A stretch of 22,323 nt of DNA from a virus. The stretch is taken from positions 1 to 22,323 of IMG/VR virus record IMGVR_UViG_3300037153_000682; one strand, given 5' to 3'. Positions 1,974 to 22,323 of the stretch are shown here, in pieces. A model generated the notes under the pieces. It worked only from the letters and a program-made list of their open reading frames with translations, ran no database searches and had not been told where the DNA came from. How positions within the stretch are numbered: the first letter of the stretch is position 1; the number at the start of each line of letters is the position of its first letter. The position numbers were made by a program, and so were the translations under genes.

Positions 1974-2015
1974 CTTGCGCAGACAATAGCGCGGGTGTAT
2001 TCTCGGCGCCAAGAC

Positions 2016-2038
2016 GGCACCCCGCAGAGCGGCACCCC
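2016..2038. repeat. 23-bp operator-like repeat, copy 1
   Basis: Identical to 2052-2074. The centre is an inverted repeat CCGC-AGA-GCGG (2022-2032), and GGCACCCC occurs at both ends of the unit in direct orientation. Copies are 36 bp apart centre to centre. Likely a binding site for a phage-encoded regulator. Confidence 0.75.
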
Positions 2039-2051
2039 CGAGCTATAGCCG

Positions 2052-2074
2052 GGCACCCCGCAGAGCGGCACCCC
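2052..2074. repeat. 23-bp operator-like repeat, copy 2
   Basis: Perfect copy of 2016-2038, ending 34 bases before the capsid ATG. The inverted core CCGC-AGA-GCGG is at 2058-2068. The midpoint between the two copies (2045) falls on the palindrome GCTATAGC. Confidence 0.75.
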
Positions 2075-2108
2075 GTTGCAGGTAATCCGCAACGAAAGGG
2101 TAAGAGCC

Positions 2109-3341
2109 ATGCTCAACGCCGTCCTACAACGTCTAGTAGACGAACGGACGCACCTGCATGAGGCGGTAGACCAGGTGCTTGCCTCGGCCAACGACGAGGA
2201 ACGCGATCCCTCGGAAGCCGAGACGGAGCTACTGGAACGCCACCGCACCCGGCTGGAGGAACTAGAGCCGCAAATCGAGGGCCTGCTACGGACCGAGGAA
2301 ACGCGCCAGGGGGCCGCCGATGCGCGCGCCTTTCTGCAGCGCGCTACACCGCGGCCCGAGACCGATCCCGAGGGGGCGCCCGCGGGCGAGGTTGTCTACC
2401 GCAATTTCGGCCAGTACGCGCGCGATGAAATCATCCGCCGCTTTCCGATGATTGCATCGCGGGCCGAGCCGGGAGCGCGCGAGGCGGCCGAGGCCCGGCT
2501 TAACCGGGCGATGGAAAACACGCTGCTGGCCGATATCCCCGGCCTGCTTTCGGACCAGCACCTGGCCCAGATCACCGATGTGATTTCCAACGCGCGGCCG
2601 GTGGTCGGGGCCTCGCGCAGCATCGGTCTTACCTCCGGCAAGGTCACCTATCCGAAGATCACCCAGCGGCCCGACGTTGGCCCCCAGGCGGTTGAAAAGA
2701 CCGAGCTGGTAAGCCGCAAGATGACCGTTGCCCTGAATGAGGCTGCGGCCAAGGTCTACGGCGGGTCCGGGGACCTGTCCTGGCAAGACATCGTTTGGTC
2801 GAACCCGGATGCGCTGGCGTTGTGGTTTGACCTAGCGGCCGAGGCCTACGCGATGGAAACCGAGGGAGTCACCTGCACCGAGGCCACCGCCGCGGCCACT
2901 ACCGGGGGCACCGTAGCCATCGAGAGTGACGACCTAAGCGGCTGGATGGCCGCCATTTCGGCAGCGGCGGGCCAGGTCTATGCCGACACCCGCCGGGCGG
3001 CCAACGTGATTGCGGCCGACATCGCCACCGGCTACAAGCTGCTAGGGATGGTTTCCGACGTGGCGCCGGTCTTTATCTCGGCCGGGGCCGGGAGCATTCA
3101 GACCGGATCGGGAACGGTGGCCGGTTTGCGCCTGGTGATTTCCTACGGCTTTACCGGTCCCACGGTGATTGTCGGGGATTTCAACCAGCTGCTAACGGCC
3201 GAGAATTCCGGCGCGCCGGTCGAGCTGCGGGCGGTCGAACCCTCGATTGCCGGGTTTGAGGTTGGCGTCGTCGGCGCCTTCCTGGCAGAGGCAATGGAAC
3301 CGTCCGCGTTCCGGGCGCTGACTCCCCCGGCCCAGCCATGA
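2109..3341 (+). CDS. Major capsid protein, HK97 fold
   Basis: A 410-aa shell protein. Residues about 1-85 are a charged, heptad-like coiled coil (LVDERTHLHEAVDQVLASAN and ELEPQIEGLLRTEE), matching the delta domain that acts as an internal scaffold in HK97-type capsids and is removed by the prohead protease. The rest has the typical arrangement: LLADIPGLLSDQHLAQITD, the strand GLTSGKVTYPKITQRPDV, then WFDLAAEAYAMETE, and a C-terminal P/A domain. The protease is encoded far away on the other strand. ATG 2109 is preferred over TTG 2076 because AAAGGG lies 8 bases before it. The stop overlaps the next ATG (ATGA at 3338). Confidence 0.93.
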   Translation: MLNAVLQRLVDERTHLHEAVDQVLASANDEERDPSEAETELLERHRTRLEELEPQIEGLLRTEETRQGAADARAFLQRATPRPETDPEGAPAGEVVYRNFGQYARDEIIRRFPMIASRAEPGAREAAEARLNRAMENTLLADIPGLLSDQHLAQITDVISNARPVVGASRSIGLTSGKVTYPKITQRPDVGPQAVEKTELVSRKMTVALNEAAAKVYGGSGDLSWQDIVWSNPDALALWFDLAAEAYAMETEGVTCTEATAAATTGGTVAIESDDLSGWMAAISAAAGQVYADTRRAANVIAADIATGYKLLGMVSDVAPVFISAGAGSIQTGSGTVAGLRLVISYGFTGPTVIVGDFNQLLTAENSGAPVELRAVEPSIAGFEVGVVGAFLAEAMEPSAFRALTPPAQP

Positions 3342-13925: not shown

Positions 13926-13950
13926 ACCGCAAACCCGCTTGGTTGAGCCA

Positions 13951-13992
13951 AGCCGACGGTGGGAATCGAACCCACGACCCCTTCATTACGAG
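13951..13992 (-). other. attP core: 3' part of tRNA-Thr(CGU)
   Basis: On the minus strand this reads as tRNA positions 32-73: anticodon loop CTCGTAA (13992-13986, anticodon CGT), stem TGAAG, variable loop, T arm GTGGG-TTCGATT-CCCAC (13975-13959), acceptor strand CGTCGGC (13958-13952) and discriminator T (13951). The 5' half of a tRNA is absent, so this is not a functional gene. It is the phage attachment core that rebuilds the host tRNA after integration, as in L5-type phages. The host tRNA should start GCCGACG, by pairing. Confidence 0.85.
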
Positions 13993-14041
13993 GGATAAAA
14001 GGCCCAAATTCAACCGGCGCCAGCCGATAGCAGAAACAGTC

Positions 14042-16432: not shown

Positions 16433-16836
16433 CCCAGGGCCGCACCCTGGCCAAGGGTGGCGCTGAGCGGTCGGTAACGATCACCTTCGGCTACCCCGAC
16501 CGGCTGCGCACCCTGGTGGCCGGGAGCATCCGCCTGGGCCTGGTCCTGGCCGAGGCCCGCTGGGGCCGCTGGCAAACCATCGAGTCGATTTCGACCCCGG
16601 ACACGATCTACAACGACCTAACCGGCAAGACCAAGACCCAGCACACCCCAGGGGTTCCCCGCGGCCCGCTGACGGTCGAAAGCAAGCTGCTAGCCATCGG
16701 CTACCGGCCCGCGCCGGGGGAGGTCGGAACCCTGCGCTACTTCCGCAGCGAGCTGGGCAGCCACCTGCGCCCGCATCGGCGCCCGGTGCGCAAGACCCCG
16801 ACCGCCACCGATGACGAGTTTGGGGACGGCCGATGA
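16429..16836 (+). CDS. Unknown early protein
   Basis: A 135-aa protein coupled by ATGA to the ParB-like gene and to the sigma factor. Begins TQGRTLAKGGAERSVTITFG; the middle is beta-rich (RWGRWQTIESISTPDTIYND), and the end is basic then acidic (SHLRPHRRPVRKTP, DDEFGDG). No family is recognised. The pairing with a sigma factor could mean it is its partner, but this rests on position alone. Confidence 0.72.
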   Translation: MTQGRTLAKGGAERSVTITFGYPDRLRTLVAGSIRLGLVLAEARWGRWQTIESISTPDTIYNDLTGKTKTQHTPGVPRGPLTVESKLLAIGYRPAPGEVGTLRYFRSELGSHLRPHRRPVRKTPTATDDEFGDGR

Positions 16837-17354
16837 CCGCGGCCGACCGCTTTGCCGCCCACGCCGACGAGGCCCGGCGCTACGCGCGCGGAATCGGCTG
16901 GTTCCTGCCCGGCGCCGAGCTGGCCGACCTTGAGCAGGAGGCCCTGCTGGGCCTTTGGCTTGCCTGTTGCGACTACCGGCCCGAGCTTGGCCCCTTCGGG
17001 AGCTTTGCCCGGATGTGCGCCCGGCGGCGGATGGTTACCGCCCTCAAGGCGGCCCAGCGGTTCAAGCACCAGCCCCTTACCGAGGCCGCCCGCGAGGCCG
17101 TCGGACCGGAGGGCGGCCCGATGCCGGTTTTGGAACTGCTAGCCGACCCGCAAGCCGATCTTGCCGCCCAACTGCTCCAACGCGAGGCCCTGAGAACGCT
17201 TCTAAGGGCCTGCGATGACCTAACGCAGGTAGAACGTCGCGCCTTTTTCGGGATCGCGCAGGGGCGCCCCTACCGTGAGCTTGGCTCAAGCAAGCGGATC
17301 GACAACGCCAACCAGCGGGCCAAGCGGAAGCTGCGGCGGGCGATGGCGGCATGA
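16833..17354 (+). CDS. Sigma-70 family RNA polymerase sigma factor
   Basis: A 173-aa protein. Residues about 28-85 match sigma region 2 (AELADLEQEALLGLWLACCD, FGSFARMCARRRMVTALKAA); residues about 118-171 match region 4, with a helix-turn-helix (TQVERRAFFGIAQGRPYREL, NANQRAKRKLRRAM). It would direct host RNA polymerase to phage promoters, perhaps the divergent structural promoter at 1974-2108 (inference). Region 4 is a little unusual in having GSSKRIDNANQR before the recognition helix. ATGA overlap with the preceding gene. Confidence 0.85.
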   Translation: MTAADRFAAHADEARRYARGIGWFLPGAELADLEQEALLGLWLACCDYRPELGPFGSFARMCARRRMVTALKAAQRFKHQPLTEAAREAVGPEGGPMPVLELLADPQADLAAQLLQREALRTLLRACDDLTQVERRAFFGIAQGRPYRELGSSKRIDNANQRAKRKLRRAMAA

Positions 17355-19643: not shown

Positions 19644-19842
19644 AGACGGCGGCTGCCATTGTCTTTGCAGCCATAACCACCCCGAGGCCCTGGCCGTATG
19701 CGAGGGCCACCAGGCCACGGCGCTGATTTTCTGGCTGCCCGACGAGCTAGCAGAGGCCCACGATCTATGGTCGGTCGAGGTGCCGTTGTGCCGGGCCTGC
19801 CTGCTGGCCTGGGTCGAAGCCGCTACAGCGCGATCCCGATAG
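19636..19842 (+). CDS. 68-aa Cys/His-rich protein, last early gene
   Basis: GTG 19636 overlaps the preceding stop by 8 bases. The sequence contains CHCLCSHNHPEALAVCEGH near the N-terminus and LCRACLLAWVEAATARS at the C-terminus: paired Cys motifs at both ends with a Trp-rich middle (IFWLPDELAEAHDLW), fitting a zinc-binding fold. The function is unknown. Its end overlaps the convergent prohead protease gene by 20 bases, with no terminator between them. Confidence 0.68.
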   Translation: MPKDGGCHCLCSHNHPEALAVCEGHQATALIFWLPDELAEAHDLWSVEVPLCRACLLAWVEAATARSR

Positions 19843-20395
19843 TGCGCAGCCGGGTTAGCTGTTCCTCAAGCGGTCCCGGCGGGAGCTGGAAATCGTCGCG
19901 CCCGCGCGCGCGGTGGACTACCTCCGTGCCCGCGTAGGCCGGTTCGGGAACGAGAGACACATCGGCCAGGTGGCAGCGGGTCCGAACGAGCTGCCCGGCC
20001 TCGTTTTTGCGGCTGCGCCCGAGCGGCACGAAGCCGACCGAAAAACCGCTTACCATTCCCTCATCGACCAGGGCCAAGGCATGGTCACCGATCATCCCGC
20101 CGACCACCTGGAAGGAACCCCAAAGGCCCTCGGCGGCCTCGCGCAATTCCAGCGCCCGCCCGATCCGGTCGGTAAGGCCGTCCCGGTGCTCAAACCGTAG
20201 GTGCACCCGGTTGGGCGCCTTGAGCGCGCGCGCGAAGGAACCGGGGGCGAACACCTCATCGTAGGGAGGCCCGCCGGGGTCCTGCACCCGCGCCGGGGTG
20301 TTGTAGGGAACGCAAAGGCCCTCAAGGATGCGCCCCTCGGCGCCGCTCATTTCCGCCGAGACGAACCGGCGCAGGATTTCCGGGTGTTCATTCAC
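19823..20395 (-). CDS. Prohead protease (HK97 family, U35-type)
   Basis: A 190-aa serine protease that matures the capsid by removing the delta domain. His70 (LRFEHRDG) and Ser119 (SGFSVGF) match the catalytic pair. The third position, usually Glu in EvSLV, is Asp145 in ADVSLVPEPA. Other signatures: ILEGLCVPYNTPARV near the start and DEVFAPGSFARAL. GTG 20395 is 9 bases after GGAGG and preferred over TTG 20401; it overlaps the portal stop by 8 bases. Unusually the capsid gene does not follow; an early-operon gene converges on its end. Confidence 0.92.
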   Translation of the reverse strand: MNEHPEILRRFVSAEMSGAEGRILEGLCVPYNTPARVQDPGGPPYDEVFAPGSFARALKAPNRVHLRFEHRDGLTDRIGRALELREAAEGLWGSFQVVGGMIGDHALALVDEGMVSGFSVGFVPLGRSRKNEAGQLVRTRCHLADVSLVPEPAYAGTEVVHRARGRDDFQLPPGPLEEQLTRLRTIGIAL

Positions 20396-21581
20396 CAGCA
20401 ATCACCTCCAGGGCGGGTGGCATTTCGGGGGCCGGGTTGGCCGGGGTGGCGTGGGCGCCCGCCGGTTCATCGATGAGGTCGAGGGCCTCCCCCTCAGACA
20501 GTGGCGGAAGGTCGAACACATAGGCGCGGTATTCGTCTTGGCTCATCACCCCATCGGCCAGGGCTTTGGAGGCAATCGATTGCCGCCCGGCCACGTCGGG
20601 GCCGACCAGCGCCGAGGGATCGAATTCCACCCACGACCCGCGCGGCAGCCAGGTGGACAGGTTGGCCTCTACCCGGTGGGCGGTCGGGTACAGCTCGGAC
20701 CGCCACCAGGTCTCAAACAGCATTTCTGGGTTGGAGTAGTTGAGGCCCCCGGCCTGTTCCAGATTGAGCATGAATGCGGGCACCCCAAAGGCCGCCGCAA
20801 TTTGCTTGGCGTCCCACTCGCGCGACTCCAGCAGCATGAGGTCGCGCGGGTTGAACGCAAACTCTTTGAACGCGATATCGGGCGGGATCACCGCCGGGGC
20901 AGCACCGCGGGCGGTCGCGCGCGCTACCCACTGGGCCTGCAATTCGGCCGCCTGTTCGGCATCGAGGCGCCGGGCGGGCTGCAGCACCGCCCAGGGGATG
21001 CCGCCTCCCGAAAACACATCGGTGGCATAGGCCGAGGCCGCCGCCGAGGCGGCCACGTTGGGCGCGTAGGCAGCCAGGGCCGAGGTCCCACGCAGGCTGC
21101 CGGGGGTGCGCGAGATTTGCAGCACATCGGCCGCGTCTAGATCGACGTTGCCGACCCGATAGCCCCGGCCGCCGGTCGGTTCCTCCTTGACCGTGACCGC
21201 GGCCGGGTCGAGCACGGTGAAGGTTTGCGGGAAGCCCGATTCGTAACGGCTGGTCACCCAGAGAAACGCATCCCCGTAGCCGTAGATCGACGCCACAATC
21301 GCAAAGGCGCAATCACCGAAGCCGCCGGGGAACCACACCGGGTCTGGATCGCTGACCCAAAGCGGCTGGTAGCTGCCGCGGAAGCGCAGCGGCAGGGTGG
21401 CAACCTGTTGCGAGACGAGCTGCAGGCAGCGCGCGACCGCGCCCACCCGGCGGGCCAAATTGGGGTTGGCCCAGGCGCCGGTCTCTAGGAACCAGTCAAT
21501 AGAGGTTGGGTGTAGGCCCTCTAGGTCGGGGTCGAGACCGGCGGGCGCCCGGCGAAAGCGGATGCGGTCAAGCAATCCCAC
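20388..21581 (-). CDS. Portal protein (HK97 family)
   Basis: A 397-aa protein forming the dodecameric ring through which DNA passes. Family features: WFLETGAWANPNLARRVGAV and ARCLQLVSQQVATLPLRF early, YGYGDAFLWV in the wing, DVLQISRTPG and GTSALAAYAPN, then AFGVPAFMLNLEQAGGLNYS and LFETWWRSELYPTAHRVEAN in the stem/crown region. The acidic/Pro-rich C-terminus (EPAGAHATPANPAPEMPPAL) is typical. GTG 21581, 11 bases after GGGAG, is used; the frame is open to 21671, but that overlaps the terminase end. Stop overlaps the protease start. Confidence 0.92.
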   Translation of the reverse strand: MGLLDRIRFRRAPAGLDPDLEGLHPTSIDWFLETGAWANPNLARRVGAVARCLQLVSQQVATLPLRFRGSYQPLWVSDPDPVWFPGGFGDCAFAIVASIYGYGDAFLWVTSRYESGFPQTFTVLDPAAVTVKEEPTGGRGYRVGNVDLDAADVLQISRTPGSLRGTSALAAYAPNVAASAAASAYATDVFSGGGIPWAVLQPARRLDAEQAAELQAQWVARATARGAAPAVIPPDIAFKEFAFNPRDLMLLESREWDAKQIAAAFGVPAFMLNLEQAGGLNYSNPEMLFETWWRSELYPTAHRVEANLSTWLPRGSWVEFDPSALVGPDVAGRQSIASKALADGVMSQDEYRAYVFDLPPLSEGEALDLIDEPAGAHATPANPAPEMPPALEVIAGE

Positions 21582-21613
21582 GGCCGGATTAGCTCCCGAG
21601 ATTACACCCCCAG

Positions 21614-22323
21614 CTAGTAAATGGCCAGCGGCCCATCCGGCCCAGCATCGGCCAGCTGCAAAGCTCGCCACCAGGCATTGCGGGCAGCGATAGCGGCATC
21701 GACAAAGGCGCCATCATCGGGCCGGGCGAGGCGCAACGAACCATCGACCCCATAGCGCACCCGTAGGCGGCTCATATGGTCGGCCAATAGCGGGTGCGCA
21801 TCGTGGGCTAGGTAATTTCCTTCCTCATGGCCGACGATGGCGCGGTAAAACTCATTTGCGCTGGTGGCCTCGTTATCCGGCCCGCCGTCCCAGGCCTCGC
21901 ACGGCAGCCCGGCCTCACGCAGGTCGGCAAACAGGCGCGGCCGAATCCGCTTCGGGTGCACCAGCGCGCGAATTTCCCACTGGTTGGCCGCCGTTTCCAG
22001 AATCCGCTTGAGGTCGGAATCCAAGGCGGCCTCTGCGCCCCAGCCGAAGAACACCCCGCCATCGAGGCTTGCCCCGACCACCGCCGAGGTGCGCCGGAAC
22101 GTTCCCTCTACCGCCAAGACCACCTCCGCGCCCGCGGGGGGCGCCTCCTGGTAGGGGCAGGCATCCCAGGCCCCGACCGGCAGCCAGCCTGCGCTTTGGT
22201 CGGTCCACAAGCCAAGGTGGTAGGTCTGGAATTCGCGCGCCGATAGCAGCCCGGCCTGCACGGCCAGCGCATCGGCCTGCAGGAAGCCCGCCCGCAGGGC
22301 CGGATTTGCCCGGCGCCAGGCTT
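21614..22323 (-). CDS. terL: Large terminase subunit, C-terminal nuclease part (partial at right edge)
   Basis: Continues the gene that begins at 900: position 22177 corresponds to residue 301, and the stop is TAG 21616-21614. This part cuts concatemeric DNA. EVVLAVEGTFRRTSAVVGAS (about 318-337) is the first strand of the RNase H-like fold; the usual metal-binding Asp is Glu324 here. NEFYRAIVGHEEGNYLAHDA and the end GAFVDAAIAARNAWWRA hold further acidic residues. Bases beyond 22177 repeat the start of the window. Confidence 0.93.
   Translation of the reverse strand, partial: AWRRANPALRAGFLQADALAVQAGLLSAREFQTYHLGLWTDQSAGWLPVGAWDACPYQEAPPAGAEVVLAVEGTFRRTSAVVGASLDGGVFFGWGAEAALDSDLKRILETAANQWEIRALVHPKRIRPRLFADLREAGLPCEAWDGGPDNEATSANEFYRAIVGHEEGNYLAHDAHPLLADHMSRLRVRYGVDGSLRLARPDDGAFVDAAIAARNAWWRALQLADAGPDGPLAIY
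22178..22323. repeat. Terminal direct repeat, right copy
   Basis: Copy of positions 1-146. The single mismatch (A at 22304, G at 127) changes an AAC Asn codon of the terminase to AAT, without effect on the protein. This suggests strain variation in the sampled population or a read error at a contig end. Confidence 0.93.

Follow-up and report, generated by a model that had tools for sequence, protein, structure and literature searches.

The repeat array that precedes the major capsid protein (MCP) gene in the 22,323-nt stretch of viral DNA analyzed here, referred to below as the window, encodes a conserved and structured 5' leader of the MCP mRNA, a conclusion to which we assign a probability of about 0.95. 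The RNA, read from the + strand, folds into a rod with four short helices, a pair of symmetric 4x4 CACC/CACC internal loops and an apical hairpin. Dozens of distantly related phages keep this rod, changes in one strand of a stem being matched by changes in the other. Its probable role is that of an undescribed RNA switch, or of a docking site for a protein, that controls the amount of capsid protein. The elements of the leader in the window are the following.

1975-1980, + strand: TTGCGC, predicted -35 of the MCP promoter (TTGCGC-17-TATTCT; weak alone)
1998-2003, + strand: TATTCT, predicted sigma70-like -10, placing the likely start site near 2009-2011
2014-2076, + strand: rod of the MCP-leader RNA, from the pairing search, covariation, RNAalifold and model R1 (2012-2078)
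2014-2017, + strand: ACGG, 5' strand of P1, pairing with CCGT at 2073-2076 (helix 1, 95.7% paired, 4/4 pairs compensated)
2018-2021, + strand: CACC, 5' side of the outer internal loop (C1, C3 and C4 invariant in each loop strand of 46 leaders)
2022-2025, + strand: CCGC, 5' strand of P2, pairing with GCGG at 2065-2068 (helix 2, 94.6% paired)
between P2 and P3, + strand: AGA/AGA, part of the rod in the window
2029-2032, + strand: GCGG, 5' strand of P3, pairing with CCGC at 2058-2061 (covariation analysis)
2033-2036, + strand: CACC, 5' side of the inner internal loop (loop invariance)
2037-2040, + strand: CCCG, 5' strand of P4, pairing with CGGG at 2050-2053 (helix 3, 96.2% paired)
2042-2049, + strand: GCTATAGC, apical GC-UAUA-GC hairpin, not conserved in relatives
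2054-2057, + strand: CACC, 3' side of the inner internal loop (loop invariance)
2058-2061, + strand: CCGC, 3' strand of P3 (covariation analysis)
2065-2068, + strand: GCGG, 3' strand of P2 (covariation analysis)
2069-2072, + strand: CACC, 3' side of the outer internal loop (loop invariance)
2073-2076, + strand: CCGT, 3' strand of P1, with bases shared with the competing hairpin P5
2074-2094, + strand: alternative hairpin P5, CGTTGC (2074-2079) with GCAACG (2089-2094), which abuts the Shine-Dalgarno and excludes P1
2094-2100, + strand: GAAAGGG, likely Shine-Dalgarno, from the sequence
2109-3341, + strand: MCP gene, the gene proposed to be regulated (phrog_2263 major head protein, E 8e-31)

An earlier note on this DNA had described two perfect 23-bp repeats around a central palindrome, and both were found exactly: GGCACCCCGCAGAGCGGCACCCC occurs at 2016-2038 and at 2052-2074, 36 nt from start to start, and the center of GCTATAGC at 2045.5 was verified. 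A perfect repeat of 23 nt is not expected by chance in 22 kb. Each copy is composed of GGCACCCC-N7-GGCACCCC, so that the array holds four boxes, at 2016, 2031, 2052 and 2067, and only two further copies of GGCACCCC are present in the window, at 1205 and 20779. The symmetry of the array results from its being one long hairpin; with CCGC-AGA-GCGG inside each 23-mer, the repeats look direct and inverted at once. Predicted folds pointed to pairing of box 2 with box 3 and of box 1 with box 4, around symmetric internal loops; a first idea of four separate mini-hairpins (CGG-CACC-CCG) was dropped once the long-range pairing proved to covary.

All IMG/VR homologs of the MCP with 59-67% identity carry GGCACCCC-like boxes just 5' of the MCP gene, with different spacers, and a wider profile search for the MCP yielded 80 loci, with leader variants such as GGCG-CACC-UCGCC and CCGA-CCCC-UCGG. 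The analysis was performed on 55 non-redundant leaders of homologous MCP genes, most of them from metagenomic contigs. Under a strict definition of the rod (two nested 4x4 C-rich loops, each flanked by at least 3 bp on both sides), it was present in 39 of the 55 leaders, and in 50 of them when one non-Watson-Crick pair per helix was permitted, whereas no strict rod was found in 2,200 dinucleotide shuffles, in 6,416 other windows from the same contigs, or in the 55 reverse strands. The earlier note had proposed that its own reading be abandoned if related phages lacked conserved repeats at this position; these were looked for and found in the MCP leaders. Its view of the array as a single control element preceding the capsid gene is thus supported, and the comparison makes of it an RNA element.

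For the covariation analysis, 46 distinct sequences were trimmed to 16 core pairs, the boxes having been picked partly by pairing. In this set 95.2% of the cells were paired, compensatory double changes occurred in 16/16 pairs, and the covariation score was 0.797 vs 0.204 for shuffled sequences, with slid structures pairing at 26-49%. Compensatory base changes therefore exceed both the shuffled and the slid controls, as befits a conserved structured cis-regulatory RNA. Because pairing had entered into the choice of the boxes, RNAalifold on an ordinary alignment served as an independent check: from a plain MAFFT alignment of 25 leaders it produced the same rod, with double changes in 13 of 17 pairs. 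A first full alignment of 37 rods had misaligned the window and was left out of the results. A covariance model (R1) trained on those 25 leaders, with the window excluded, matched the window at a single site, 2012-2078, with a score of 34 bits and an E of 0.0068 in 775 kb; it also recovered leaders L240/L241 and L258, none of them in the training set. In the MCP-bearing contigs, all 51 matches with E<0.1 were MCP leaders. No family of Rfam 15 matched the rod above its gathering score, the best sub-threshold match being at chance level (E about 1, wrong strand), and no description of an MCP-leader element was found in the open-access literature searched.

Repeats with dyad symmetry next to a predicted promoter resemble operator arrays, and could be protein sites on double-stranded DNA, for an activator, a repressor, or a sigma or winged-helix protein. 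We consider this extremely unlikely, as partners up to about 90 nt apart covary while the arms vary, the spacing of the boxes is variable (15/21/15 in the window vs 16/16/16 in L240), and chimeras that combine a 5' half and a 3' half from different phages do not pair, scoring 18.2 vs 51.1 for the native leaders. In addition, the loops invariably face the mRNA-sense strand, and non-Watson-Crick pairs beside them are G-U more often than A-C (35 vs 12), as expected for sense RNA; this excess would be supportive rather than decisive, given the phylogenetic non-independence of the leaders, and interior helix positions display no difference (G-U 5 vs A-C 4). DNA iterons, operators or a packaging site were accordingly discarded as candidates on the basis of covariation and the single-strand orientation of the loops. 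The earlier note had further suggested service of the array by the phage sigma factor or by winged-helix proteins, and no finding points there, the signal consisting of RNA pairing with invariant loops. The Pfam match of this "sigma factor" (16833-17354) is limited to sigma-70 region 2.

In 26 of 50 leaders the first loop is preceded, at 13-16 nt, by a TAnnnT hexamer, and in most relatives a TTGnnn (TTGACG, TTGCGA, TTGTCG, TTGCAA) is located at the same distance as in the window, about 17 nt above it. This predicted -10, being conserved and upstream of the array, implies that the array is transcribed, and the placement of both hexamers suggests that transcription probably begins within a few bases of P1. 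The 3' end of the rod is about 29-48 nt from the MCP start codon, so the element occupies a fixed position in the 5' UTR, between the predicted promoter and the start codon, as a structured cis-regulatory RNA would. The proposal of a -10 shared by both directions within the array does not hold: GCTATAGC is the apical hairpin, replaced by TTTA in L240 and by unrelated apical loops in other leaders, and the conserved -10 sits upstream. No promoter-like site was predicted at GCTATAGC, where the last base of the -10 would be C on both strands. A weak candidate promoter for the leftward gene was predicted at TTGGCG (2012-2007), 18 nt, TATTGT (1988-1983); since it overlaps the rightward promoter, any shared promoter region would be at 1975-2012, to the left of the array.

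The leftward gene adjoining the gap (ATG at 1973-1971) had no match in PHROGs or Pfam. The earlier note had taken the leftward genes at the gap for packaging genes, but this one resembles a gene for a small membrane protein; HNH, TerL, portal and protease genes come after it on the same strand (19823-22323 and 1-1402, - strand), opposite to the MCP gene. The ends of the contig (1-146 and 22178-22323) are 99% identical, indicating closure of the contig at about 22,177 bp, as a circular or permuted molecule. The window is the only case in which portal and protease run opposite to the MCP gene. Wherever else the protease was located, in 67 loci, it lies upstream of the MCP gene on the same strand with the element still present, implying that the packaging/capsid module has been rearranged in the phage of the window, where the rod remained with the MCP gene. 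The element therefore belongs to the MCP gene only, and a bidirectional function is not borne out.

A protein-blind search of DNA patterns, for three GGCACCCC boxes and then with R1, led to rods located 9-44 nt before nine remote MCPs (L008, L012, L013, L026, L028, L044, L047, L080 and L085), which match the MCP profile at only E 1e-6 to 1e-20. The rod thus acts as a gene-independent marker, a DNA pattern search alone having reached very divergent capsid genes. Four of these rods are weaker (L013, L080, L028 and L047; R1 E 0.2-0.5) and rest on their position, and in L080 the longest reading frame begins slightly within the rod, an ATG following 42 nt later. Many matches to the triplet of GGCACCCC boxes were coding tandem repeats and were discarded, and an R1 match in a Streptomyces contig (L171) corresponded to a G/C tandem repeat and not to an MCP leader. 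A search for the MCP across 396 Actinomycetota genomes gave one remote homolog (32% identity), in a contig that ends at the MCP start, leaving its leader unreadable. Separately, a fragment resembling the 3' half of a tRNA, with T-arm GTGGGTTCGATTCCCAC, is found directly after the integrase gene of the window (13950-14000, - strand) and is the probable attP core; it had no match in 396 Actinomycetota genomes.

A structured RNA near the probable 5' end of a transcript, ahead of a long operon, might also mediate processive antitermination at the start of the late transcript, like put of HK022, and let RNA polymerase read through terminators of the structural operon. This role is distinctly unlikely, because no strong terminator was predicted from the MCP gene to the end of the structural genes, with weak stems inside genes only, and because the element keeps its distance to the MCP start codon under any operon order.

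The reading that we favor, with slightly better than even odds, is that of a protein-bound operator of MCP translation, possibly switching with a hairpin that blocks the Shine-Dalgarno. Transcription would start a few bases before the array, and the RNA would fold into the rod with its two C-rich CACC/CACC loops, which are putative binding sites for a protein encoded by the phage, perhaps the MCP itself, or by the host. We infer recognition by a protein because the stems vary freely and the loops, in several copies, do not. Their invariance, together with the position of the rod, is compatible with an autogenous translational operator, though the class of loop follows neither the MCP phylogeny nor the host cleanly, which weakens the idea of the MCP as the ligand. 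On the other hand, the loops might pair with RNA, since CACC is close to the anti-Shine-Dalgarno CACCUCC, and would then bind G-rich ribosome-binding sites in cis or in trans, in the manner of sRNAs with C-rich loops. In predicted folds box 4 is able to pair with the Shine-Dalgarno region, and GGAGGUG is present in many leaders. However, the loops are fixed and the Shine-Dalgarno varies (GAAAGGG in the window, GGAGGTA in L240, GGAGGTT in L278), so that the two do not covary, and such pairing would not need four copies; we regard it as very unlikely.

In the less secure part of the proposed operator, binding of the protein would stabilize the outer helix P1, which competes with P5 for shared bases, and as P5 abuts or overlaps the Shine-Dalgarno, occupancy of the loops could set the translation of the MCP. 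In many leaders such a hairpin, running up to or into the Shine-Dalgarno, could begin with the 3' strand of P1, as in L240 (CCGTCG/CGACGG), L309 (CCAGGG/CCCUGG) and L317 (GCCGAACCU/AGGUUCGGC), and P5 is enriched over shuffles (mean score 9.1 vs 6.8; window p=0.04). Just 11 of the 50 leaders reach p<0.05, and some appear to lack P5, which makes the switch a weak step. The P1 and P5 states share 1-4 nt in 13 leaders, picked for having P5, and in 12 of these 13 the nearest-neighbor energies, from a model that ignores possible structure in the C-rich loops, favor P5 over P1; the naked RNA of the window is likewise predicted to prefer P5. As these energies strongly disfavor P1 in most of the leaders tested, P1 would be stabilized by a ligand, held by non-canonical pairs, or transient. 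Its conservation despite unfavorable energies would look like that of a ligand-stabilized helix.

Remote relatives of the MCP were found in mycobacteriophages, whose protease-MCP gaps carry reiterated hairpins with other loops. In Omega-like phages, Typha and Bipper there are two tandem UGGCACU heptaloops on varied stems (GCCCCC/GGGGGU, AACCCUC/GAGGGUU, CCCCCUUU/AAAGGGGG, UCGUCG/CGACGG, GCCC/GGGC), and the leaders with this pair of hairpins include those of Courthouse, Typha, Bipper, Baka and WXIN (L334, L335, L336, L338 and L339, respectively). A search for the pattern of paired UGGCACU loops retrieved 15 contigs, 13 of them with a readable downstream ORF, which scored as an MCP homolog in 12 of the 13. 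MooMoo and prophiGD91-2 (L324 and L325; 1350-1440) have three tandem GAAnnnnAGUA loops upstream of the MCP gene, on GGCC/GGCC, GACC/GGUC and GGCU/AGCC, which make up a third loop class; cluster O carries two CUCG-(CUGGC or UUAGC)-CGAG hairpins, seen in Dylan (L323, 2110-2186) as two tandem UCUCG-(CUGGC/UUAGC)-CGAGA before the MCP gene, and prophiGD43A-5 (L337) has GCCCC-UGCUC-GGGGC and GCCC-AGCUC-GGGC. Hairpins in the MCP leader are not mentioned in the papers on clusters J and O. What these classes share with the rod is position and reiteration, which need not mean common descent of the RNAs.

The mycobacteriophage leaders also bear on another possible role, in which a 5'-terminal rod with protein-coated loops would guard the abundant MCP mRNA from decay and give a high yield with no switching. 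P1 lies within a few bases of the likely 5' end, the MCP gene has its own predicted promoter even in mid-operon, and the related mycobacteriophages show by eye an apparent terminator, then the hairpins, and then the MCP gene. Plain protection, however, needs no invariant loops, yet C1, C3 and C4 are fixed in all four strands and the other loop classes are likewise invariant, so we judge a stabilizer of this kind unlikely. More tentatively, and with the odds still against it, the MCP genes throughout a large superfamily of tailed phages of actinobacteria could be under a common, undescribed control, in which an mRNA leader with 2-4 lineage-specific invariant loops (CACC/CACC rods; UGGCACU, GAAUnGnAGUA and CUGGC/UUAGC hairpins) would be recognized by a protein that coevolves with it, perhaps the capsid protein, and capsid synthesis would be tuned to assembly.

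Hundreds of copies of the capsid protein are needed, at a level proportionate to that of its partners, and to our knowledge little is known of how its amount is set post-transcriptionally in tailed phages. An RNA that is conserved, confined to the MCP messenger and furnished with several copies of an invariant loop points to a specific regulator, for which a search can be made. Since the remote relatives with UGGCACU hairpins have been isolated as phages of Mycobacterium smegmatis, the question is testable in a laboratory host.

Phage translational operators include the coat-protein hairpins of MS2 and Qbeta and the operators of T4 gp32, RegA and gp43. Like these, the rod is a structured, repeated RNA just 5' of the start of a structural gene, where a protein, probably bound to it, would set translation; unlike them, it belongs to the MCP gene of tailed dsDNA phages and has four C-rich loop strands in a single rod. 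It shares with leaders of the CsrA/RsmA and TRAP types a short motif reiterated in the loops of a 5' leader, suggestive of multivalent protein binding, but the motif is CMCC in symmetric internal loops, instead of GGA or GAG, and occurs at phage MCP genes only. As in riboswitch-like leaders with mutually exclusive helices, P1 and the predicted Shine-Dalgarno-adjacent P5 share bases, whereas the rod sits at a capsid gene with no small-molecule logic and matched no Rfam family. The put RNA of HK022 is likewise structured and 5'-terminal in a phage transcript, but its target is RNA polymerase in early operons, while the position of the rod is tied to the MCP start codon. Finally, short repeats near phage start codons or promoters are represented by the start-associated sequences of cluster K mycobacteriophages and the stoperators of cluster A (named in PMC4351075); in contrast to these DNA sites dispersed over the genome, the rod occurs once per genome, as a folded RNA site whose stems covary.
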